From the IMG/VR virus record IMGVR_UViG_3300031578_003737, positions 1 to 22,121 of that record: a stretch of DNA of 22,121 nt; one strand, 5' to 3'. The position numbers were made by a program, and so were the translations under genes. Source of the stretch: a virus. Shown piece by piece: positions 11,046 to 20,721 of this stretch (positions are counted from its first letter, which is position 1; each line of letters begins with the position of its first letter). Under the pieces are notes generated by a model that saw nothing but the letters and a program-made list of their open reading frames with translations, was not told the DNA's origin and ran no database searches.

Positions 11046-11420
11046 ATGACAAGTGAGGAGTTGGCAACTGCTGTTAGGAATTTCTGTGCACATTTTGTTA
11101 TGCCGGAAGGTCTTTTGCAGCTTTGCGAAGAGCGTGTTCTTGGCCCAGGCGATGAGCAATACTCACATGGCAATCAGCAGGTGTTTGAATTGCTACCAAT
11201 TGCCAAACTTGCTGATATGTTTGAAGAGGAGATTGCAGACGCGCTTGTGTATGTAGTAATGTTGTGCATCCGTTTCAAACAGTGGAGCTATCATTCCACT
11301 GTTCAGCACCTAGAGACTTTTGCCAAAGCCTTAATGGTAGCGTACTGTGATCTCGAAATGTCTCTCGATGATGAGCTTTTCGCCGAAAAGGTAAGCGAGG
11401 ACGATGCCAAAGTTTGTTGA
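11046..11420 (+). CDS. MazG-like nucleotide pyrophosphohydrolase
   Basis: A 124-residue all-helical protein with a GGGGA site before the ATG. The central segment MFEEEIADALVYVVMLCIRF (residues 58-77) has the metal-binding ExxxD-type motif EExxD (Glu61, Glu62, Asp65) followed by a hydrophobic helix. This is the signature of all-alpha NTP pyrophosphohydrolases of the MazG/dUTPase-2 superfamily. A basic/Gly-rich loop (YSHGNQQVFELL) precedes it, as in related phage enzymes. Such enzymes hydrolyse (d)NTPs to monophosphates and pyrophosphate; in phages they are thought to adjust nucleotide pools or blunt alarmone signalling. The substrate cannot be told from sequence. The last 17 bases overlap the HNH gene start. 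Confidence 0.68.
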   Translation: MTSEELATAVRNFCAHFVMPEGLLQLCEERVLGPGDEQYSHGNQQVFELLPIAKLADMFEEEIADALVYVVMLCIRFKQWSYHSTVQHLETFAKALMVAYCDLEMSLDDELFAEKVSEDDAKVC

Positions 11421-11964
11421 TGAGACGGGGAATCATTATGGGAGATTAACAGTATTGAAGCGTGCCGAAAGGGTACATGGAAAGGACAGCGCATACTGGC
11501 ATTGTCGTTGTGACTGTGGAAACGAAACTATTGTTCGTAGCACCTGTCTGCGCGGTGGACATACGAAAAGCTGTGGTTGTCTGCAAGAGGAGCGACGCTG
11601 GGAGGCTCTCGCTTTACCGGAGGGTGTAGCTGCTTTTAATTCAATGGTCAGCAATATACAGCATGGTGCTAAGGCACGCCAACTTGAATGGAATCTAACG
11701 GATGAACAGGTGGCCTACCTGACCAAACAACAATGTTATTACTGTGGTGCAGAACCATCACAAGTGTCACATCCTGCCAAATGTAATGGGGTGTATGTTT
11801 ACAACGGACTTGACCGCATTGACAACGATAAGGGTTACATGATTGACAATGTAGTTCCTTGCTGTATCAAGTGTAACCGTGCAAAGCGCACAATGACGTT
11901 GGGAGAGTTCGAGTCGTGGATTGTGAGAGTATATGAGCAGCTTATGGAGCGTACTGGGAAATGA
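11404..11964 (+). CDS. HNH homing-type endonuclease 1
   Basis: A 186-residue free-standing endonuclease. Residues 9-60 form a zinc/DNA-binding module: GNHYGRLTVL, then HCRCDCGNE (Cys34, 36, 38) and KSCGCL (Cys57, 59). The HNH-type nuclease occupies about residues 110-170: CYYCG (Cys111, Cys114), LDRIDNDKGY and NVVPCCIKCNRAK (Cys153/154, Cys157). The first His of canonical HNH is replaced by the DRIDN form common in phage enzymes. It should cut DNA at a long recognition site and promote its own spread. It lies directly before the sugar cassette, with starts and stops overlapping both neighbours. It is paralogous to the 19634-20497 protein. Confidence 0.9.
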   Translation: MPKFVDETGNHYGRLTVLKRAERVHGKDSAYWHCRCDCGNETIVRSTCLRGGHTKSCGCLQEERRWEALALPEGVAAFNSMVSNIQHGAKARQLEWNLTDEQVAYLTKQQCYYCGAEPSQVSHPAKCNGVYVYNGLDRIDNDKGYMIDNVVPCCIKCNRAKRTMTLGEFESWIVRVYEQLMERTGK

Positions 11965-12776
11965 CACAAGATTCTGTTGCTACCACGATAATTATTCCGA
12001 CCTTTAATGGTAAGGAGCACTTGGAGCGTTGTTTGTCGGCTATTAGTCGGAATACTGCCGCGCCTTATAAACTGCTGATTGCTGATGACAGGAGCTCGAA
12101 CCCTGCGTTTCGTGCTTATTTACGTGGACTTAAAAGTAGGTACAGCATTATAAAGTCACATGTGCGCCGTGGTTTTGCCGGCATCAACAATTGGGCTGTA
12201 TCCAAAACAGATACCAGGTACATTTGTCTCCTCAATTCTGATACTGAGCCTGGTTATCAGTGGTTGACGTTTATGCTAGAAGAACTTGACAACAATGGGG
12301 ATGTTGGTATAGTTGGTGCTAAATTGATGTATCCACCGCAGAAGGGTTGGAGTCTCGGTGGTAGCATTCAGCACGCAGGTGTCGCACGCAATAGCGACGG
12401 GCTCCCATATCACATATTTGGTGGACAGCCTGTGGACTTTCCAGCGGCTAATGTGCGCCGAGAACTGAATGCTGTAACTTTTGCGTGTGTGCTAATCCGT
12501 CGCACGTTATGGGACGAATTAGGTGGTCTCGATAAAGGCTACATCATAGGACAATTTGAAGACATCGACTTTTGCTGGAAAGCACGAAAGAACGGTTGGA
12601 AAATCGTGTATCAACCAAAAGCTACACTTCTACATTATGAGCATGGTTCAGGTGATGATGTTGTCTTGAAACATAGTATGCAAAATAGGGATCGTCTTAT
12701 GCGTGTTTGGGGGAACTTGGGCAGTGATGAGCATTTGTTTACGCAGGGGGAAAGATGTTTGAGTTTTCCGTTGTAA
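11961..12776 (+). CDS. GT2-family glycosyltransferase A
   Basis: A 271-residue GT-A-fold transferase. It opens with TIIIPTFNGKEHLERCL, has the nucleotide-sugar binding pair ADD (41-43) and a metal-binding NSD (92-94, a DxD variant). Further on it has the acceptor/catalytic segment QFEDIDFCWKARKNGW (198-213), and the HYEHG motif (225-229) typical of rhamnosyl/galactosyl-type GT2 enzymes. It transfers a sugar from a nucleotide donor to an unknown acceptor, in the cytoplasm since there are no membrane segments. It starts in an ATGA overlap with HNH endonuclease 1 and overlaps the next transferase by 22 bases. It is the first gene of the seven-gene sugar cassette. The donor sugar cannot be assigned. 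Confidence 0.9.
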   Translation: MTQDSVATTIIIPTFNGKEHLERCLSAISRNTAAPYKLLIADDRSSNPAFRAYLRGLKSRYSIIKSHVRRGFAGINNWAVSKTDTRYICLLNSDTEPGYQWLTFMLEELDNNGDVGIVGAKLMYPPQKGWSLGGSIQHAGVARNSDGLPYHIFGGQPVDFPAANVRRELNAVTFACVLIRRTLWDELGGLDKGYIIGQFEDIDFCWKARKNGWKIVYQPKATLLHYEHGSGDDVVLKHSMQNRDRLMRVWGNLGSDEHLFTQGERCLSFPL

Positions 12777-13627
12777 TTGCTGTTTATAACCGACGAGAGA
12801 GCCTATATCTCACTCTCTGTGCGTTGGACAAGACGCTATTGCACTACCAACAGCCTGTTGAAATAGTTGTCGTAGACGATGGTTCTACAGATAATCCTCT
12901 CGAAGTCATGTTTGAGTTTCAAGATAAATTTGCACTGCAATATCGTTGGCAACCACACAACGGCTTTCAAGAGGCTTTGGCGATCAATCGCGGATGTGCA
13001 ATTGCACGTGGTCACAACTTTCTAATCACGGACGCTGACATCCTTCTAACACCGGAATCACTTGCACATCTTGCCAACATCATTCGAGCAAATCCAGGAA
13101 TTATCGTTGCTGGTCGCTATGATTGGATGCTACCAATGAAAATACGTCCATATGACATTTACTACAATTGGGACAAAATAGTTGACGGAACACTTCCTCC
13201 AGCGCAGTTTGGTGGTAATCCAAAAGGTTTTATCGGCGTCGATCCACGGCACATAAGCGACCCACATCTGTTTGATGGAGATAGATTACATACACAGTTT
13301 GCCGCGATACTTTTTGCTGGCGTTCTAATGTTTCCCAGAGCACAGTACACTGCATTGGGTGGTTTTGATGAGCAAATGGTTGGGCATGGTGGTCAGGACT
13401 GTGAGTTGAGTATTCGTGCACAACAGGCAGATTATCACGTGATTTTTTCAGGGCTGGTGCATGGGTTTCATATGTATCACGACAGGGATCAGGTTGCCAA
13501 TCAGACGGCATGTAACAGGAATGTCCAATACATAGCAAAGAAACACAACCTGGAAGATGTGGGCCTGTACATGTGGCATGTTGGGAACGTTATGGGCATA
13601 GCACGTGCAGGGGAAAAGTTACCATGA
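12755..13627 (+). CDS. GT2-family glycosyltransferase B
   Basis: A 290-residue GT-A transferase. FSVVIAVYNRRESLYLTLCA opens the nucleotide-binding fold, and VVVDDGSTD (38-46) and TDADIL (92-97) are the donor and metal sites. GGFDEQMVGHGGQDCELSIR (202-221) matches the C-terminal galactosyltransferase-like region, where ED/QDxEL contacts the acceptor and base. A His-rich stretch (HGFHMYHDRD) follows and could add a metal ligand. The segment GRYDWMLPM (120-128) is repeated in the next gene as GRYDWMPPM, and the DxD motifs lie at the same residue numbers. Genes B and C are thus a tandem duplication that has diverged. No membrane anchor. Donor and acceptor unknown. Confidence 0.9.
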   Translation: MFEFSVVIAVYNRRESLYLTLCALDKTLLHYQQPVEIVVVDDGSTDNPLEVMFEFQDKFALQYRWQPHNGFQEALAINRGCAIARGHNFLITDADILLTPESLAHLANIIRANPGIIVAGRYDWMLPMKIRPYDIYYNWDKIVDGTLPPAQFGGNPKGFIGVDPRHISDPHLFDGDRLHTQFAAILFAGVLMFPRAQYTALGGFDEQMVGHGGQDCELSIRAQQADYHVIFSGLVHGFHMYHDRDQVANQTACNRNVQYIAKKHNLEDVGLYMWHVGNVMGIARAGEKLP

Positions 13628-14481
13628 CAAGTATTTGCGTCGTGATGGCAGTACACAATCGTATAGACAGTGTGCACTGTGCTCTCCATTCATGGGCATT
13701 GCAAACACGCAAGGGCTTTTCTGTAGTTGTTGCAGATGATGCAAGCACCGAGGACATGTGTGGGTTAGTTAAAGAATACATGGGTGCACTAAATGTATTT
13801 TATGTCTCTACTGGAGGCTCTGTGCCTCGCACTGTTCCAGTGGCGCTGAATGTAGGTACAAAAGCAGTGCCTTTAGAAACGACACATCTTTGGTACACAG
13901 ATGGCGACATCATCTTCAATAGTAAAGCTATGCAGGTGGCCTACGAACACATTGCGCTGCATCCTAATAGAGTCATAACTGGTCGGTATGATTGGATGCC
14001 ACCCATGATCTTTTCACCACAAGATTTGGAACGGGACTTTCAAGGGTTTGTAGATTGCAGATTCCCGCGTAGGGATGTTGATGCTGCTCATATAGTGCGA
14101 CGTGTGGATCATCGAACAGGAAGTCGTGTACCAAACTGGTTCCAACATCAACTTCTCGACTCTTGCAGGCCCATTCTAGGAGCCAACGTAATCATGCCGG
14201 TGCAAGCATGGTATGACATTGGCGGTTGGGACGAGCACATTCCTGGCGCAAATGCAAATGATTGCGACTTTGGTTGGTGTTTAACTGATGCGGGTTATCA
14301 TCTACTGACTTGTGAGTGCATCATAGGCTATCATCAGTGGCATCCGAGAGACATCAAAACGCTGGAACTCTTTAAGGTATCCTTGCCGTATATCTTTCGT
14401 AAGCATGGTGAGGAAGTTCCTGACCAGTGGAAGCCCTATGATACATTTAAGGAAAAGAATTGTGGCCAAGTTCACCTATGA
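13624..14481 (+). CDS. GT2-family glycosyltransferase C
   Basis: A 285-residue GT-A transferase. The ATG at 13624 (MTSICVVMAVHNRIDSVHCA) is preferred over an upstream start because it lies in an ATGA overlap with gene B, has GGGGAAA upstream, and begins exactly where the paralogue does. VVVADDAS (34-41) and TDGDII (92-97) supply donor and metal binding. GGWDEHIPGANANDCDFGW in the C-terminal half corresponds to the acceptor region of gene B, with NDCDF replacing QDCEL. A long overlap with the next frame is avoided if that gene starts at 14462. Its function is probably related to B but on a different acceptor or linkage. Confidence 0.88.
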   Translation: MTSICVVMAVHNRIDSVHCALHSWALQTRKGFSVVVADDASTEDMCGLVKEYMGALNVFYVSTGGSVPRTVPVALNVGTKAVPLETTHLWYTDGDIIFNSKAMQVAYEHIALHPNRVITGRYDWMPPMIFSPQDLERDFQGFVDCRFPRRDVDAAHIVRRVDHRTGSRVPNWFQHQLLDSCRPILGANVIMPVQAWYDIGGWDEHIPGANANDCDFGWCLTDAGYHLLTCECIIGYHQWHPRDIKTLELFKVSLPYIFRKHGEEVPDQWKPYDTFKEKNCGQVHL

Positions 14482-15463
14482 TGGTGTACAAATAGAAGTC
14501 TCTGAACCTAGACGCTGGCCTATCGAGTGGATTACATTTAGGTGTCATCCATGTACCGATTGGTTTGGTGTAGGACAGTATATGAGTGGAGAACTTCCCG
14601 AAGCTCCAATTGTTATTTGTAAGGATTCCTTTGTTGTGTTGGATGGTTGGCATAGATTGGCAGCAGCATGGCGATTGGGTCATCATTATATTATGGTACA
14701 ATTTGCAGACTTTCATCTCGGAGGTGCTCAAGATCGCTGTCACATAGATAAGGTGAATTGGATGGAAACGTTGCGTCCGTGGGTTGATCTCGAATGTATC
14801 TCAGGAAGCTATCATAGAAAAGATTTTGATGTTACCTCGTTTGCTGAGGTAGTTGCTTCACTTAAGCAAGCAGGCGACATTCATATGCCAGTAGCACGAT
14901 GGTGGGAACATACAAGGGCGGTTGTCTGCTTGGGCGTATTAGTCGGTCGGCGCATCTTAGATGTAGGGACAAGAGAAAGTATTATTCCAGCTTATCTTGC
15001 GGACAGGGGTGCTTACGTTGTGGCTACGGATTTGAACGTAAAGCAAATAGCGTTGCACCCTAACGTTGAGATCACACAGGCAGATGCAACGGCGTTGCAG
15101 TTTGAGGATGCCAGTTTCGATCATGTTCTTTGCACTGCTTGCATAAAACACATCACCAATGATACATTAGCAGTATCTGAGATGTTGAGGGTGTTAAAAC
15201 CTCGCGGACTATTGGCATTGTCATTCGATTTTGGACAAGAATATGCAGAGTATCCTAGTGAGGCTACAGGACGGCGCATCTACAATAAGGCAGCCGTTTA
15301 TACACGTCTTATTGATCCGTTCCGAGATGTGGCTATGTTGTGTGAGCCTGCCGACTTTGACCGCAATGATTGGAATGACTGGCCAATCGAAAACCAAGCG
15401 CCCTCTGTCTTTAGGAAAGGCGTAAACGTGCAAGTAGCATTTGTGCTGATGAGGAAACGATGA
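14462..15463 (+). CDS. ParB-like domain fused to SAM-dependent methyltransferase
   Basis: A 333-residue two-domain protein. The GTG at 14462 is chosen because AAGGA lies about eight bases upstream; the frame is open from 14405, deeper in the previous gene. The N-terminal domain (about 1-90) has PIVICKDSFVVLDGWHRLAAAWRLG, the ParB/sulfiredoxin-type D-G-x-H-R motif at Asp61-Arg65. ParB-fold proteins bind nucleotides such as CTP. The C-terminal domain (about 160-260) is a class I methyltransferase: ILDVGTRES (165-173), VATDLN (187-192), ADATALQF (207-214) and VLCTACIKHI. The expected Gly-x-Gly after DVG is altered to GTRES, seen in some sugar-cluster methyltransferases. It probably methylates a sugar or glycan; the ParB-like part may sense or process a nucleotide. 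Confidence 0.82.
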   Translation: MAKFTYDGVQIEVSEPRRWPIEWITFRCHPCTDWFGVGQYMSGELPEAPIVICKDSFVVLDGWHRLAAAWRLGHHYIMVQFADFHLGGAQDRCHIDKVNWMETLRPWVDLECISGSYHRKDFDVTSFAEVVASLKQAGDIHMPVARWWEHTRAVVCLGVLVGRRILDVGTRESIIPAYLADRGAYVVATDLNVKQIALHPNVEITQADATALQFEDASFDHVLCTACIKHITNDTLAVSEMLRVLKPRGLLALSFDFGQEYAEYPSEATGRRIYNKAAVYTRLIDPFRDVAMLCEPADFDRNDWNDWPIENQAPSVFRKGVNVQVAFVLMRKR

Positions 15464-16512
15464 AAATAGCATTCGTGTACACCAAGGGGCGACCAGGAAG
15501 TTGGGCAGATCAAACTTTTGACTTGCAGGACTTTGGTGGTTCTGAAGGAAGCATGATTCGGTTTGCACAGGAATTTGTTGGTCTTGGCCATGAGGTAACG
15601 ATTTACACTTCAGGGGCCAAAGCACAGCGACACGCTGGTGTTGAGTGGCACGACTTTGTTGGTGGTATATGCTATGACCAGACTTTTGACGTGGTTATTT
15701 CTGTGCGATTTCCTGTTGCCTTTGCTGCTGAGGCTGAACTTGGTGCGTTGTTTTGCACAGACCCAGAAATACCAGAGTTGCAACGTTGGGTTGCACGCGG
15801 AGACATAAATCTGGTCATCGTCATCAGTGAGTACCAGAAGCGCCTGTTTCAGTCGCAACACCCAATAGATGAGAAGCTATATCTCGTTAGTAATGCAGGT
15901 GTGGTTTACGCAGACTATGTTGGTAAGAACATCTCTAAGGTGCCAGGAAGATGTATCTACTGTAGTGTAGCAGATCGTGGTTTGGAACACTTGGTATCAA
16001 TATGGCCAAAGATTCGTAGGGAAGTTCCTTGGGCAACGTTGCATATTACTGGAGGTTATTCTTTGTGGGGCTTAGATATACCACTACAAAAACAGCCTGT
16101 CCTTCGTCAGATGTTAGCGTTAGAGGGTGTGACTTATTTGGGGGTTATTTCTCGTGAGAAGCTAATTGAGGCACAATTGCAGAGTCAGGTGTTGCTACTT
16201 CCAGGGAAAGAGCTCTCTCCAGAAATGTGTTGTATGGCTGCTATGGAGTGTGCGGCAGCAGGTAATGTTTTGATAGTTGGTGACATAGCGGCTCTTCCTG
16301 AGCGTGTCATCGAGGGAGAGACTGGTTATGCTGTTAAGCATGAGGGTGATTGGCAGACAGTTTTTGCACAAAAGGCAATAGTGGCACTTACCAGTCCTCG
16401 CTTACAAGAAATGCAAGCACTAGCTCGTGCAGGCGAGTGTGCACATGATTATTCAGTATTGGCTCCTGAGTGGATAACACGCTTCGAGGAAGAGATAAAT
16501 GCACGCAGGTAA
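15460..16512 (+). CDS. GT4-type (GT-B fold) glycosyltransferase
   Basis: A 350-residue protein with a GAGGAAA ribosome site and an ATGA overlap with the upstream gene. KIAFVYTKGR starts the first Rossmann domain, and DFGGSEGSMIRFAQEFVGLGHEVTIYTSG is the family's Gly-rich acceptor loop followed by the typical 'LxxxGHEVTIYT' strand. CSVADRGLEHLVSIWPKI begins the second, donor-binding domain. LLLPGKELSPEMCCMAAMECAAAGNVLIVGD carries the E-x7-E-like nucleotide-sugar motif of GT4 enzymes. It should work as a cytoplasmic retaining transferase. It differs in fold from the three GT2 enzymes, so the cassette builds at least two kinds of linkage. Donor unknown. Confidence 0.88.
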   Translation: MKIAFVYTKGRPGSWADQTFDLQDFGGSEGSMIRFAQEFVGLGHEVTIYTSGAKAQRHAGVEWHDFVGGICYDQTFDVVISVRFPVAFAAEAELGALFCTDPEIPELQRWVARGDINLVIVISEYQKRLFQSQHPIDEKLYLVSNAGVVYADYVGKNISKVPGRCIYCSVADRGLEHLVSIWPKIRREVPWATLHITGGYSLWGLDIPLQKQPVLRQMLALEGVTYLGVISREKLIEAQLQSQVLLLPGKELSPEMCCMAAMECAAAGNVLIVGDIAALPERVIEGETGYAVKHEGDWQTVFAQKAIVALTSPRLQEMQALARAGECAHDYSVLAPEWITRFEEEINARR

Positions 16513-17038
16513 GAATGTCACTATCTATGAGTTGGCAAAACTGGTGTATCCTGAAAACGTCACGCTTGGGCACCACGTCATCATAGACGATTTCGTTTTC
16601 ATCGTGGCTAAACTGCCATCTGAGATTGGCAGCTATGTTCACATAGCTTCGTTCACCTCCATCACTGGAGGTGGGAGTTTTAACATAGGAGACTACAGTA
16701 CGCTATCCAGTGGTGTTCGCATATTTACTGGGACAGAAAACGTTAACGGGGACAGTTTGCTAGGCGCAGCAATTCCAGCGCCGTATCGAAAAGCAATCCG
16801 TTCGCACGTACAGATTGGAAAGCATTGTATGGTGGGTGCCAACACTGTTGTTCTGCCAGGCGTGGTTATTCCTGATGGTACAGTGGTTGGAGCGATGTCT
16901 CTAGTATTGCAAGATACGACCTTAGAATCTTGGAGCATTTACGCTGGATGTCCTGTACGAAAACTCAGAGGGCGATCTAGTATGATGATACTTGCACTAG
17001 AAGCAAAGTTGCGTGCAGACGAAGGAGCGGCGACGTGA
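16499..17038 (+). CDS. Hexapeptide-repeat acyltransferase (acetyltransferase)
   Basis: A 179-residue left-handed beta-helix protein. Hexapeptide rungs run from about residue 22 to 140: VTLGHHVIIDDFVFI, IGSYVHIASFTSITGG, FNIGDYSTLSSGVRI, VQIGKHCMVGANTVVLPGVV and IPDGTVVGAMSLV. His48 in VHIASF is in the usual catalytic-His position, and SIYAGCPVRKLRGR is the typical exit of sugar O- or N-acetyltransferases. The family transfers acetyl from acetyl-CoA, usually as a trimer. GAGGAAGAG precedes the ATG, and the gene overlaps both neighbours (14 and 4 bases). It sits next to a sugar aminotransferase, so N-acetylation of an amino sugar (as by FdtC/QdtC/WbbJ-type enzymes) is likely, though O-acetylation is possible. 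Confidence 0.9.
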   Translation: MHAGKNVTIYELAKLVYPENVTLGHHVIIDDFVFIVAKLPSEIGSYVHIASFTSITGGGSFNIGDYSTLSSGVRIFTGTENVNGDSLLGAAIPAPYRKAIRSHVQIGKHCMVGANTVVLPGVVIPDGTVVGAMSLVLQDTTLESWSIYAGCPVRKLRGRSSMMILALEAKLRADEGAAT

Positions 17039-18198
17039 AACTTGCGATATTTGGGGCAAAGCCAGCATTTAGCACTCCGTTGCACGTTGGTAGGCCCAAC
17101 CTTGCTGCGTCTACAAAACTTCTTTCTGCCTTTGAGAAGATACTTGATAGCAAATGGCTCACGAACGACGGTTGTTGGGTTCGTTCACTTGAAGGTGAAA
17201 TAGGGCAATACTTGAACGTAAAACATTGCATAGCTGTGGCAAACGGAACGCTAGGATTGGAGATAGCAGCTAAAGCCCTTATGCCTGAATGCGGTGAGGT
17301 CATTGTACCTTCGTTCACATTCGCTGCGACCCCACACGCATTGGCGTGGCAGGGATATAAGCCTGTTTTTGCAGACATCAATATGAGCACTCATGTTCTT
17401 GATCCCAATGATGTGGAAGCGAAAATCACTGACCGTACTATTGGCATTCTCGGTGTACACACTTGGGGTACTCCATGTGCTGTAGATGCGTTAACTGTAA
17501 TAGCGAAAAAGCACGGCTTGAAGCTCTTTTTTGACTCTGCTCATGCGTTTAGTTGTAGTAGTATGTACGATGGTAGAAGTTCTGGAAGTTTTGGTTGTTG
17601 TGAAGTATTCTCATTTCACGCCACGAAGTTTTTCAACACAGTTGAGGGTGGTGCAATTACCACCAATGATGCTAGATTAGCTCAAAGGTTTAGAGAATTG
17701 CGGAACTTTGGGTTTGTTGGAGACGGTACGCACGAGGCATCCGATATTGGTATTAATGCCAAAATGAGTGAACTCCATGCTGCTGTGGGTGTGATAAACT
17801 TGGTGGAGATTGGGTCGTTTGTTACCCGCAATTTTGTGAACTATGCTGGATATATGCACGGTCTACAACATCCAAATCTGTGTGTCTATCCACATGAAGG
17901 TGGGAACTATCAATATGTGGTTATTGAACTGTTGAAAGGGGCACTGTCGGCAGACGTTTTAACTAAAGTGTTGCGTGCTGAGAATGTTCTAGCGAGACGC
18001 TATTTTTCACCGCCATGTCACAAGATGGTTCCATACAACCAGGAGGCGCATTTTCTACCAATAACTGATGTCGTCTCGGACAGGGTTTTTGTCCTACCAA
18101 CCGGCATGTCAGTGGGGCAGCAGGATGTAGACAAAATCTGCGAGCTAATTCTATATTGTGTTGACAATGCAGAGGCGATTATGGAGAAAGTAACATGA
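17035..18198 (+). CDS. DegT/DnrJ/EryC1-family PLP sugar aminotransferase
   Basis: A 387-residue aminotransferase starting at a GTG with AAGGAG upstream. GRPNLAAS is the family's N-terminal entry, ANGTLGLEIAAKALM (70-84) binds PLP phosphate, and FFDSAHAFS (165-173; Asp167, His170) contacts the pyridine nitrogen. FSFHATKFFNTVEGGAI (192-208) holds the Schiff-base Lys198, and GINAKMSELHAA (239-250) contacts the sugar nucleotide. The enzymes transfer an amino group from glutamate to a keto sugar nucleotide (3- or 4-position). No gene for the keto sugar intermediate is present, so the host must supply it. Together with the acyltransferase it could make an N-acetylated dideoxy amino sugar for the transferases. 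The stop overlaps the portal gene (ATGA). Confidence 0.92.
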   Translation: MKLAIFGAKPAFSTPLHVGRPNLAASTKLLSAFEKILDSKWLTNDGCWVRSLEGEIGQYLNVKHCIAVANGTLGLEIAAKALMPECGEVIVPSFTFAATPHALAWQGYKPVFADINMSTHVLDPNDVEAKITDRTIGILGVHTWGTPCAVDALTVIAKKHGLKLFFDSAHAFSCSSMYDGRSSGSFGCCEVFSFHATKFFNTVEGGAITTNDARLAQRFRELRNFGFVGDGTHEASDIGINAKMSELHAAVGVINLVEIGSFVTRNFVNYAGYMHGLQHPNLCVYPHEGGNYQYVVIELLKGALSADVLTKVLRAENVLARRYFSPPCHKMVPYNQEAHFLPITDVVSDRVFVLPTGMSVGQQDVDKICELILYCVDNAEAIMEKVT

Positions 18199-19619
18199 CA
18201 GATACACCTAAAAGGTCAGGTTTTATTGGTCGGGTTCTTGCAAAGATTCGTACAATGCTTAGTACACCACTTGTACCTGAGACTCAGCCGACTTCCGCTA
18301 TCGGCGTTGTAGAAGACAACCTGGATATGCTCTCGAATCTTTTCTTCAATATCTCGACCAAGCGCGTGAATGTGTACATAGATACTGAGGAAATGGATGA
18401 AACCGTTGACGAGGTAACTTCAGCACTTGATATTCTGGCTGACAATGCTGTTAACTCGGAGCAAGGTGCTGGTCAATCTTTCATCCTTCACTATGTCGGC
18501 GTGCCTGAAGCTCTAGTGAATAACATAGAGCAAATGCTGGCACGCACTAGGTGGGCAGATAAAGCCTACTCGTTTGCTAGGCAGACTCTCAAATACGGTG
18601 ACTGTTTTGTTCAGTTTGTCTTTGACAAACAATTCAATATTGTGCGCCTTATGGATATGCCTGCAAGCACTATGAGGCGAAATGAGGACAAACAGGGTTT
18701 GCTGCTGAATGGTAGTAAGCAGGGTGAATTTGCATTTGAGCAGTATGTCAATGCCGGTATGCAGTTTGTCGCTGGCTTTTATCCGTGGCAGATGGAACAT
18801 ATGCGATGGAATCGCGTTGGGGGTAGCAAGTATGGAACTTCGCTGCTCTTCACAGCACGTACAGCATGGAAAAAGTTGCAGGCAATGGAGGAAGCATTAG
18901 TAATTAACTGGCTTACTCGCGCCTTCGCTCGCTTACTATTTATCATTGACACCAGTGGTAAAGGGCCGATGGAATCCCTGCAAGCTATAGAAGACTTTAA
19001 ACACACGCTGAGGACGCGTGATGTCGCTACTGATACAAAAGGCACGGAGCAACTATCAGTGGTCAAAGATGTCTACATTGCTAAGTCGTATCGTGAAATG
19101 GGAGGTCGTGTTCAGGAGGGTTTGACAGACGTTAAGGTACTAGATACCAGCAACACAGGATTCTGGAACTTGTCAGCAATTGAGTATTACCAGAACAAGA
19201 TCATCACGTCACTGAAAGTTCCAAAGGCACACCTTGGCATAGAGCGTGACATCAATGCTAAGGCTACCTTGCAGCAACAGGATCGTAGATTTGCACGCAC
19301 CGTCAGGCGTGTGCAATCAATGTTGAGCATGTCGATAGAGCATACCATTGATCTGCAATTGCTAATGTGGGGACTTGATCCTAACAGTGTGGAATACAAA
19401 ATTGTGTGGCCGGCCCCTAGTTGGGAAGATGAACAGGAGAAGAGTGTCACCACGAAGAACTATGTTGATGCTGCTGCGGTAGCACTGAAGTTGGGTATCG
19501 TAGACCACACTTACATTCGTAGTAATTGGTTGGGTATGTCGCAGAAGGAGCTTAGGGAAATGAGTGGGTTGGAAAAAGATGTTGAGCCAGAAGCAGGGCC
19601 GAGGTCGAACGCTGATTAG
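18195..19619 (+). CDS. Portal protein (T4 gp20-like)
   Basis: A 474-residue portal of the T4 gp20-like family. KYGDCFVQFVFDKQFNIVRL (133-152) is the wing/stem region, WNRVGGSKYGTSLL (205-218) the conserved core, and YYQNKIITSLKVPKAHLG (about 335-352) the 'xYFxxKLxxALxVP' family signature. This is followed by the basic RRFARTVRRVQ helix. The protein forms the dodecameric channel for packaging and the head-tail joint. The C-terminus (SNWLGMSQKELREMSGLEKD...) is repeated in divergent form at the end of the next gene. It starts in an ATGA overlap with the aminotransferase and is separated from TerL by the sugar cassette. Confidence 0.93.
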   Translation: MTDTPKRSGFIGRVLAKIRTMLSTPLVPETQPTSAIGVVEDNLDMLSNLFFNISTKRVNVYIDTEEMDETVDEVTSALDILADNAVNSEQGAGQSFILHYVGVPEALVNNIEQMLARTRWADKAYSFARQTLKYGDCFVQFVFDKQFNIVRLMDMPASTMRRNEDKQGLLLNGSKQGEFAFEQYVNAGMQFVAGFYPWQMEHMRWNRVGGSKYGTSLLFTARTAWKKLQAMEEALVINWLTRAFARLLFIIDTSGKGPMESLQAIEDFKHTLRTRDVATDTKGTEQLSVVKDVYIAKSYREMGGRVQEGLTDVKVLDTSNTGFWNLSAIEYYQNKIITSLKVPKAHLGIERDINAKATLQQQDRRFARTVRRVQSMLSMSIEHTIDLQLLMWGLDPNSVEYKIVWPAPSWEDEQEKSVTTKNYVDAAAVALKLGIVDHTYIRSNWLGMSQKELREMSGLEKDVEPEAGPRSNAD

Positions 19620-19633
19620 TGAGGGATTTTGTT

Positions 19634-20497
19634 ATGCCAGCGATGGTCAACGAAATGGGTAATCGCTACGAAAGATTGACGGTGCTGGAACGCACTCAAA
19701 ACAACAGACATGGAGCAGCACAGTGGTTATGCAGATGTGATTGTGGAGAGTTAACCACTGCGCTTGGTAGTAGTCTCCGTTTTGGGAGGACGAAAAGTTG
19801 TGGATGTTTACACAAGGAAGCTGTGAGGCGTGTGGGCGTGTCCAACGTTGTTAATCGTGAAGGTCATAAATATGGCAGGTGGACTGTCATTAAAAGGTGT
19901 GGTTCTAATGGAAGTGGGCAGGCGGCTTGGTTGTGCAAATGTGACTGTGGAAAGGAGGGTGTCGTTACAGGTACTAACCTTCAATCAGGAACTTCTAAGA
20001 GCTGTGGATGTTTGCGGAGGGAAATTGTAAGAAGGTTACACACTTTACCTGAAGGCGAAGCAGCTTTTAACGCAGTTGTTAGTGTAATGGAGGGTAGTGC
20101 TAGGGTACGCGGTTACGAATGGCAGCTAACAAAAGAGCAAATTCGTTACCTTACCAAACAATCGTGTCATTATTGTGGGGATGCTCCATCACAGGTTTAT
20201 AAAAACCCACGGGTAAATGGTAATTATGTCTACAACGGCCTAGACCGCGTTGACAACGACAAGGGTTATACAACTGATAATGTTGTGTCTTGTTGCTTTG
20301 TGTGTAATCGCGCAAAAAGCGTGATGACTTTGAAAGAGTTTAGATCGTGGGCCTTTAGGCTTTGTGAACACCTTGCTGGTTGTACGAGCTGGATGGACAT
20401 GAGTCAAAAACAATTGAAAGAGCTTGAGGGAATAGAGAAGAACATAAAACCAGAACCGGAATCGGAACCAGAACCAGAATCAGACAACAAAGAGTGA
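19634..20497 (+). CDS. HNH homing-type endonuclease 2, carrying a portal-like C-terminal tail
   Basis: A 287-residue paralogue of the 11404-11964 endonuclease. The ATG at 19634 is chosen over an upstream GTG because GAGGGA lies seven bases before it and the protein then starts MPAMVNEMGNRYERLTVL, like MPKFVDETGNHYGRLTVL in its paralogue. It has two copies of the CxCDCG/SCGC zinc module (residues 10-60 and 80-126) where the paralogue has one. The HNH core follows: CHYCG, LDRVDNDKGY and NVVSCCFVCNRAK. About 37 residues after the point where the paralogue ends resemble the portal C-terminus (SWMDMSQKQLKELEGIEK versus NWLGMSQKELREMSGLEK), followed by an acidic Pro/Glu/Ser run. That tail is probably a leftover of an interrupted portal gene. 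Confidence 0.9.
   Translation: MPAMVNEMGNRYERLTVLERTQNNRHGAAQWLCRCDCGELTTALGSSLRFGRTKSCGCLHKEAVRRVGVSNVVNREGHKYGRWTVIKRCGSNGSGQAAWLCKCDCGKEGVVTGTNLQSGTSKSCGCLRREIVRRLHTLPEGEAAFNAVVSVMEGSARVRGYEWQLTKEQIRYLTKQSCHYCGDAPSQVYKNPRVNGNYVYNGLDRVDNDKGYTTDNVVSCCFVCNRAKSVMTLKEFRSWAFRLCEHLAGCTSWMDMSQKQLKELEGIEKNIKPEPESEPEPESDNKE
20384..20497 (+). repeat. Divergent copy of portal C-terminal coding sequence
   Basis: This segment encodes SWMDMSQKQLKELEGIEKNI plus an acidic tail, resembling the portal end encoded at 19521-19619. The DNA copies are clearly diverged. The extra segment starts where the paralogous HNH protein stops, marking a probable insertion junction. Confidence 0.72.
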
Positions 20498-20505
20498 GGT
20501 GAAAC

Positions 20506-20721
20506 ATGTTTATCAGTAAGAAGCAGTGGTTAGAGTTGTGGCAAGAGATACGTGGACAGGGCAGACACATTACGACACTTAACGAAGAGATGGGTGCTGT
20601 ACAAGAGCACACCAAGTACATACCAGTGATGCGTAACAATATCAAGTGGCTTATGTGGTTAGTTTGTGCAATCTTTCTAGCAGTTCTCGCTGGTCTGCTT
20701 AAACAGTTCTTTGGGATATAG
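20506..20721 (+). CDS. Small XhlA-like membrane protein
   Basis: A 71-residue protein with one transmembrane segment at about residues 48-66 (WLMWLVCAIFLAVLAGLL). It has a charged, helical N-terminal half (KQWLELWQEIRGQGRHITTL) and the phrase NNIKWLMWLVCAIF before the membrane. This layout, a heptad-like soluble helix then 'NIKWLxR/W' and a single membrane helix, resembles the hemolysin XhlA family of phage lysis or membrane-attached proteins. It is only an architectural match. AGGTGAAAC lies before the ATG. It sits between HNH endonuclease 2 and the prohead protease, an unusual position for a lysis gene, so a different membrane role during assembly is possible. Confidence 0.65.
   Translation: MFISKKQWLELWQEIRGQGRHITTLNEEMGAVQEHTKYIPVMRNNIKWLMWLVCAIFLAVLAGLLKQFFGI

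Follow-up and report, generated by a model that had tools for sequence, protein, structure and literature searches.

It is commonly assumed that a homing element can spare its host gene only from within an intron or an intein, or at an intergenic site. In fungal mitochondria, mobile ORFs that form gene hybrids have been described for atp6, atp9, cox2 and nad3 of Glomus sp., the first case being atp6 of Allomyces macrogynus (PMC3630166). In phages, the free-standing homing endonucleases of T4 (seg, mob) are encoded by intronless genes lying beside their targets, and are associated with flank co-conversion and marker exclusion; the insertions treated in the relevant passages of the T4 review are intergenic or split a gene (as mobE does in nrdA of Aeh1), and none is presented there as carrying a replacement gene end (PMC2988022). 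A survey of nuclease genes at exchange boundaries deals, in its corresponding passages, with introns and with repeats inside nuclease genes (PMC10448857). Here, we describe a phage locus at which an HNH homing-type cassette with its own replacement gene end is likely to have entered a portal gene and displaced the resident end.

The window, i.e., the whole stretch of DNA that was analysed, is itself a virus record in IMG/VR (22,121 bases). Towards the right end, it encodes a T4-type portal, an HNH endonuclease (HNH2), a membrane protein of 71 residues and a protein of 461 residues; all the window features located below are on the plus strand. The portal gene (18195..19619) is T4 gp20-like (Pfam Portal_T4, E 4.7e-32; PHROG portal protein; the predicted structure, with a pLDDT of 41, is uninformative) and reads as a hybrid of a resident body and a foreign 3′ end, the latter spanning 19524..19619 with its own stop codon. 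The encoded protein finishes with NWLGMSQKELREMSGLEKD and then an acidic run. A short spacer (19620..19633), read directly from the sequence, holds the likely HNH2 ribosome-binding site GAGGG, after which HNH2 probably starts at the ATG at 19634 rather than at the GTG at 19619, and runs to a stop at 20497. The C-terminus of HNH2 is SWMDMSQKQLKELEGIEKN, again followed by an acidic run. Its last 36 residues resemble the portal end with a local BLOSUM62 score of 89, and none of 2000 HNH2 shuffles reached 66, the score of the 19-residue core, so the diverged second portal C-terminus that the initial annotation had seen on HNH2 stands up to scoring. This segment (20387..20497) is in frame with HNH2, and the portal homology may begin a few codons earlier, at about 20378. 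Further upstream, between the terminase and portal genes (11961-18198), the window encodes glycosyltransferases, an acetyltransferase-like protein and a DegT-type aminotransferase.

Nine portal relatives were obtained from an IMG/VR scan (L001-L009). The first, a second IMG/VR contig, has the same arrangement as the window and differs from it at 18 positions over 4276 common bases (from 17846), none of them before 21720. In six HNH-free relatives (L002-L007), the portal leads straight into the small membrane-protein gene (20506..20721 in the window), in keeping with the earlier proposal that a homing-type endonuclease gene sits at the portal 3′ end, and all six of these portal homologues carry a tail of the HNH2-fused type. 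The HNH gene is missing at the same site in these relatives, as is typical of a homing gene. The last two relatives (L008 and L009, 51%) have other portal ends, and none of ten more loci retrieved by profile search has an HNH gene after the portal. L005 and L006 appear to be one phage. In the DNA alignment, the correspondence between HNH2 and the HNH-free portals extends over the tail, the stop codon and the intergenic bases as far as the following start codon. Over codons 444-462 (57 nt), the HNH2 tail shares 86.0% identity with L002, likewise the nearest relative in the portal body (79.7% nt), and 82.5% with L005, with a range of 66-86% across the other phages. The window portal tail reaches 54-61% with the five relatives compared, below every pair among those (64.9-78.9%), and the two window tails are the most distant pair of all, with 28 of 57 nt matching (49.1%) and none of eight shared degenerate residues using the same codon. 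Because the HNH2 tail matches the HNH-free portals and the portal tail is the outlier, the resident portal end is, on these alignments, the copy fused to HNH2 and the portal's own end is foreign. The initial annotation had taken the tail of HNH2 for the old portal end, and its junction with the resident downstream gene agrees with this.

These distances also bear on a simpler explanation, namely that the portal 3′ end was duplicated in tandem in place, that the HNH gene was inserted between the copies and that they diverged later. The HNH gene does lie between two copies, and a near-exact duplication of 80 bases around an HNH gene at another locus (L275, see below) indicates that simple duplication can occur. 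However, tandem duplication predicts sister copies, while the window copies are further from each other than from the relatives; moreover, the foreign tail of phage phi93, described below, is outside sequence between identical flanks. We consider such a duplication very unlikely. A close empty-site relative of the portal was not found, the best having 85% amino acid identity; no donor of the foreign tail was found in IMG/VR, and no portal relative in the genome-contig collection.

The change from resident to foreign sequence is sharp. In 19-codon sliding windows, it falls within codons 431-444 (19485..19524), which would be the left edge of the cassette, and the tail is the most extreme stretch along the portal: the window-minus-relatives identity is -0.13 at codon 444, compared with a body mean of +0.026 (sd 0.034, minimum -0.042). 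An origin of the present end in another allele, as first annotated, is therefore upheld, although the foreign tail is about 31 codons long and its ancestry rests on short alignments. The foreign end, made of MSQKELREMSGLEKD-like DNA, has 10 of 19 residues in common with the resident tail and looks like a working portal end. Summed over the sliding-window comparison, its synonymous agreement with the relatives is 13/47, compared with roughly one half for the body. Such divergence fits a diverged portal under selection, and selection for mismatch with a cut site could produce it as well, the sample being too small to separate the two.

The HNH2 core (19634..20386) comprises two CxCDCG...SCGC zinc-finger-like modules and an HNH-type domain. 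It corresponds to the PHROG HNH endonuclease (E 2.6e-37), which gives it a nuclease domain of a homing-endonuclease family; a Pfam search of HNH2 returned no HNH match. The AlphaFold2 model has a mean pLDDT of 83, with a good core, and its top PDB fold match is PacI (E 7.3e-4). In many HNH enzymes, the nuclease motif contains a catalytic DH. The HNH2 family has DR instead, invariant in the eight aligned members (window 20246-20320), which makes its putative catalytic residue uncertain. A paralogue with 53% identity, HNH1 (11404..11964), lacks the portal tail, and its stop coincides with the start of the extra HNH2 segment, as the initial annotation had stated; the paralogues end where the HNH2 core ends. 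HNH2 relatives occur at gene junctions in this phage group (HNH1 in the window, two in L002 and one in L004), and the portal tail is absent from all four. A 124-residue ORF before HNH1 (11046-11420) is matched by relatives only to residue ~108, its last residues differing from theirs and overlapping the HNH1 start; HNH1 too may thus have changed a gene end.

One could imagine that HNH2 has co-opted the portal-like tail for a function of its own, for instance capsid or DNA binding, and the tail is indeed in frame and not decayed. Yet this last part of the gene is still in its native place, including stop codon and intergenic DNA, and the tail is modelled with low confidence (pLDDT 56-68). In addition, at three comparable loci, two with methyltransferases (L204, L226) and L153, the relic is situated past the stop codon of the HNH gene. 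Recruitment appears highly improbable on these grounds. Even less credible is a group I intron that holds the HNH gene and has the downstream copy as its second exon. HNH genes are, as is well established, common in phage introns, and intron examples are cited in the survey mentioned above (PMC10448857). Against this, no Rfam group I intron matched at gathering threshold in 12 loci and, with permissive Rfam filters, the window stretch gave one sub-threshold match only, to another family, and phi93 gave none; an intron would also not encode a complete homologous end into which the upstream frame runs. The Rfam results thus place no self-splicing intron around the HNH gene, which is free-standing.

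The arrangement is best resolved in a series of Lactococcus phages. In the cultured dairy phage phi93, a Skunavirus, a methyltransferase gene is followed by an HNH gene and, right after the HNH stop and in another frame, by a relic of the methyltransferase end. In Phi155, the methyltransferase gene is uninterrupted and represents the empty site for phi93: the two phages are identical at 689 of 692 nt upstream and 500 of 500 downstream, and the block inserted in phi93 consists of a foreign tail plus the HNH gene. As at the portal, the foreign end precedes the endonuclease gene and the native end has been moved behind it, the phi93 relic beginning at ACAACAG of native GGTTCAGGA|ACAACAGC. The native methyltransferase end is complete in 29 of 38 matching records (rows H156-H184; GenBank and RefSeq copies counted apart), and the HNH gene is present in three of the Lactococcus records (phi93, and PhiM1127 twice). 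Several Skunaviruses that lack the HNH gene keep the foreign tail: Phi40 and FB14 carry it with the HNH gene deleted, phi145 has it joined to the last native codons, and the frameshifted Phi109, which has it in part, looks like a recombinant at the common AATACTGAACGAAATT. The foreign tails of phi93 and FB14 are identical at 158 of 162 nt, compared with 44% (aa) and 67% (nt) for the gene bodies. In Lactococcus phage PhiL.6 (KP793122, ~872-979), the match to the native end begins close to the junction seen in phi93 (base 24 of the query versus 27), and this phage is possibly another HNH-loss derivative. M.Phi145I was reported to protect DNA against HphI (PMC4190342), and the sequence of this protein (Phi145_02) carries the foreign tail, from which it follows that a hybrid-tailed enzyme works. 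In a published assay, the phi93 HNH protein had no significant activity against phage sk1 (PMC12724721); sk1 does not appear by name in the 38 records with a match to the target tail.

The PacI-like HNH protein of phi93 (Phi93_03) is related to the HNH protein of L204 (42%) and to HNH2 (38%), and like HNH2 it has a swapped gene end alongside. It differs from HNH2 in having a methyltransferase as its target and in terminating before the relic. The genes of phi93 are listed in published descriptions, whose relevant passages are silent on the relic and on the swapped end. As the phi93 sequences show, a foreign end and an HNH gene form a single block that has native sequence on either side, and native relics persist.

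This block structure weighs on the order of events. The initial annotation had proposed that the endonuclease gene was inserted first and that the portal end was restored later from another phage; an illegitimate crossover between a phage with the portal-HNH pair and a phage without it would be a related route. The final anatomy would be identical, free-standing HNH genes of the HNH2 family do occur at gene junctions in relatives, and flank co-conversion is known in phage homing (PMC2988022). However, such a history requires an intermediate with a broken essential portal, or one lucky crossover, and a new end and an HNH gene are repeatedly found as one block at several genes, which favours a cassette. 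We regard insertion with separate restoration, or crossover, as unlikely, and the order first proposed is probably wrong, since the methyltransferase end and the HNH gene arrive together in phi93 relative to Phi155. By analogy with this pair, the foreign portal end and the HNH gene would have come in one insertion, which suffices for the portal; the mechanism at the portal is extrapolated from the methyltransferase loci. The divergence of the two portal copies, initially attributed to age or to mixing of two lineages, would then reflect the distance of the donor, possibly together with a need to differ from the cut site, and not age, the old tail being undecayed and still 86% identical in nucleotides to L002.

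Altogether, these observations suggest a model for the cassette we favour. It would comprise, in order, a replacement 3′ end of the invaded gene, a ribosome-binding site and a free-standing gene for an HNH homing-type endonuclease, and would have entered the portal gene near codon 443. The enzyme would cut an uninvaded portal near this codon, and repair of the break would use the allele with the cassette as template, guided by homology on the portal side and, judging from the junctions, by little on the far side. The portal frame would then read into the portal end of the cassette and stop there, so that a complete portal protein would still be made, while the resident end would be pushed beyond the HNH gene, whose frame happens to read through into it and to use the resident stop codon. 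The invaded gene would be functional immediately, with an end that no longer fits the presumed cut site; the sequence difference is observed, and immunity to cutting would be its consequence. Loss of the HNH gene would usually leave the foreign end in place, and the gene end would stay changed. In this model, the anatomy is seen in the sequence, and it is the cutting, homing and immunity that we infer.

The layout recurs in other phages. Endonuclease-like ORFs were searched for a second copy of the preceding gene's C-terminus on the far side of the endonuclease. A first screen of 90 loci yielded the window type and endonuclease paralogues only; in the enlarged screen, 8 of 253 endonuclease-like ORFs in 332 loci show the layout, with three types of target: the portal, six DNA methyltransferases (L204, L226, L231-L234) and what reads as a PD-(D/E)XK-like, or nuclease-like, gene (L153). 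This tally leaves out L076, L081, L261, L197 and weaker matches. Two candidates of the C-terminal list, L051 and L067, were judged to be endonuclease paralogues. The portal tail itself was found at this locus only among the 253 screened ORFs (the window and L001, one distinct ORF), and is thus not a common ending of HNH proteins remote from a portal gene. At L204, L226 and L153, the HNH stop codon marks, or just follows, the beginning of a relic in a different frame, whose own stop is adjacent to the start of the next gene or overlaps it, as expected of a native gene end. At a Z score of at least 9, 11 of 419 endonuclease pairs passed, as did 21 of 2400 control pairs, which means that layout cases need inspection and not a score alone; the passing controls look like tandem paralogues.

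Mirror cases were found at gene starts. The clear one (L317:2001-3734) has a relic start, an HNH gene and then the same gene intact with a new N-terminus; its target reads as an ERCC4-like nuclease, for which no match was found in the phage collection. Four others (L292, L259, L147 and L051) are shorter and less certain. At L275 (3211-4034), a near-exact repeat of ~80 bases around the start of a gene, read as nicotinamide phosphoribosyltransferase-like, lies on both sides of the HNH gene. Some neighbouring features were noted in passing. A terminase-like ORF (L317:3583-6339) seems by eye to hold an intein (CLVGDTMV ... GTPNHKV), and L051:122-2000 contains a topoisomerase-like gene, upstream of which lies what may be a displaced N-terminal piece, as well as two neighbouring ORFs with a common restriction-nuclease-like domain.

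Among the methyltransferases, the contrast between body and tail was dropped as evidence for a cassette, HNH-free controls behaving alike: conservation of the HPTQKP...GS segment is 85.4% in 10 HNH-free methyltransferases and 84.1% in the six IMG/VR cassette loci. There is also no clear co-variation at the methyltransferase loci, either of the cassette tail with the HNH protein (r 0.31) or of the relic with the body (r 0.08). In the motif GSG|TT, F or L replaces G in six of seven cassette-bearing methyltransferases, L204 keeping G, while G is kept in all 10 HNH-free controls, from which HNH-free phages with cassette-like tails (L337, L344, L345, L348) had been set apart after inspection; L347 is not read by this pattern. 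The motif is GSF in Aeromonas phage PhAER-3 (L337), where no HNH gene is annotated and no relic was seen in the stretch fetched, so the change is not exclusive to cassettes. This difference (6/7 cassette tails against 0/10 controls grouped post hoc) suggests that immunity to cutting could be gained through changed codons.

The likeness to the fungal mobile ORFs is close. In both, a core gene receives a foreign C-terminus, followed by an endonuclease ORF and by the displaced native C-terminus; the native copy matches relatives and the inserted copy is foreign, and one fungal insert is even in phase (PMC3630166). The differences are equally clear: the fungal elements are mitochondrial and encode LAGLIDADG or GIY-YIG enzymes, whereas the present ones are found in phages and encode an HNH enzyme with zinc-finger modules. 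Because these are phage records with an HNH enzyme, the phage cassette may be said to work like a mitochondrial mobile ORF without being a member of that group. Furthermore, in the fungal account, the empty-site isolates presented are not as near as the phi93/Phi155 pair, and mirror cases at gene starts, present here, do not figure in the corresponding passages on mobile ORFs (PMC3630166). No phage report of the cassette layout was found in the open-licence PMC literature, and as far as searched, the replacement-end cassette known from fungal mitochondria appears to be undescribed in phages.

A broader reading, to which we give even odds, is that phages host recurrent HNH cassettes that act like natural home-and-rescue drives, each bringing an altered, cut-resistant 3′ or 5′ end of its target gene, with the result that even conserved or essential coding sequence could be invaded and the gene left intact. 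As the two copies of the end differ, clean loss of such a cassette by recombination between them would be rare, most losses would retain the foreign end, and the ends of phage genes would be steadily replaced. A cassette that brings a replacement gene end would constitute a third route for homing elements and would explain their entry into the coding sequence of a portal or a methyltransferase. This route would create hybrid proteins by design, which can mislead gene trees and annotation. With a full cassette, an empty site and HNH-less derivatives, the Lactococcus series makes the mechanism directly testable in culture.
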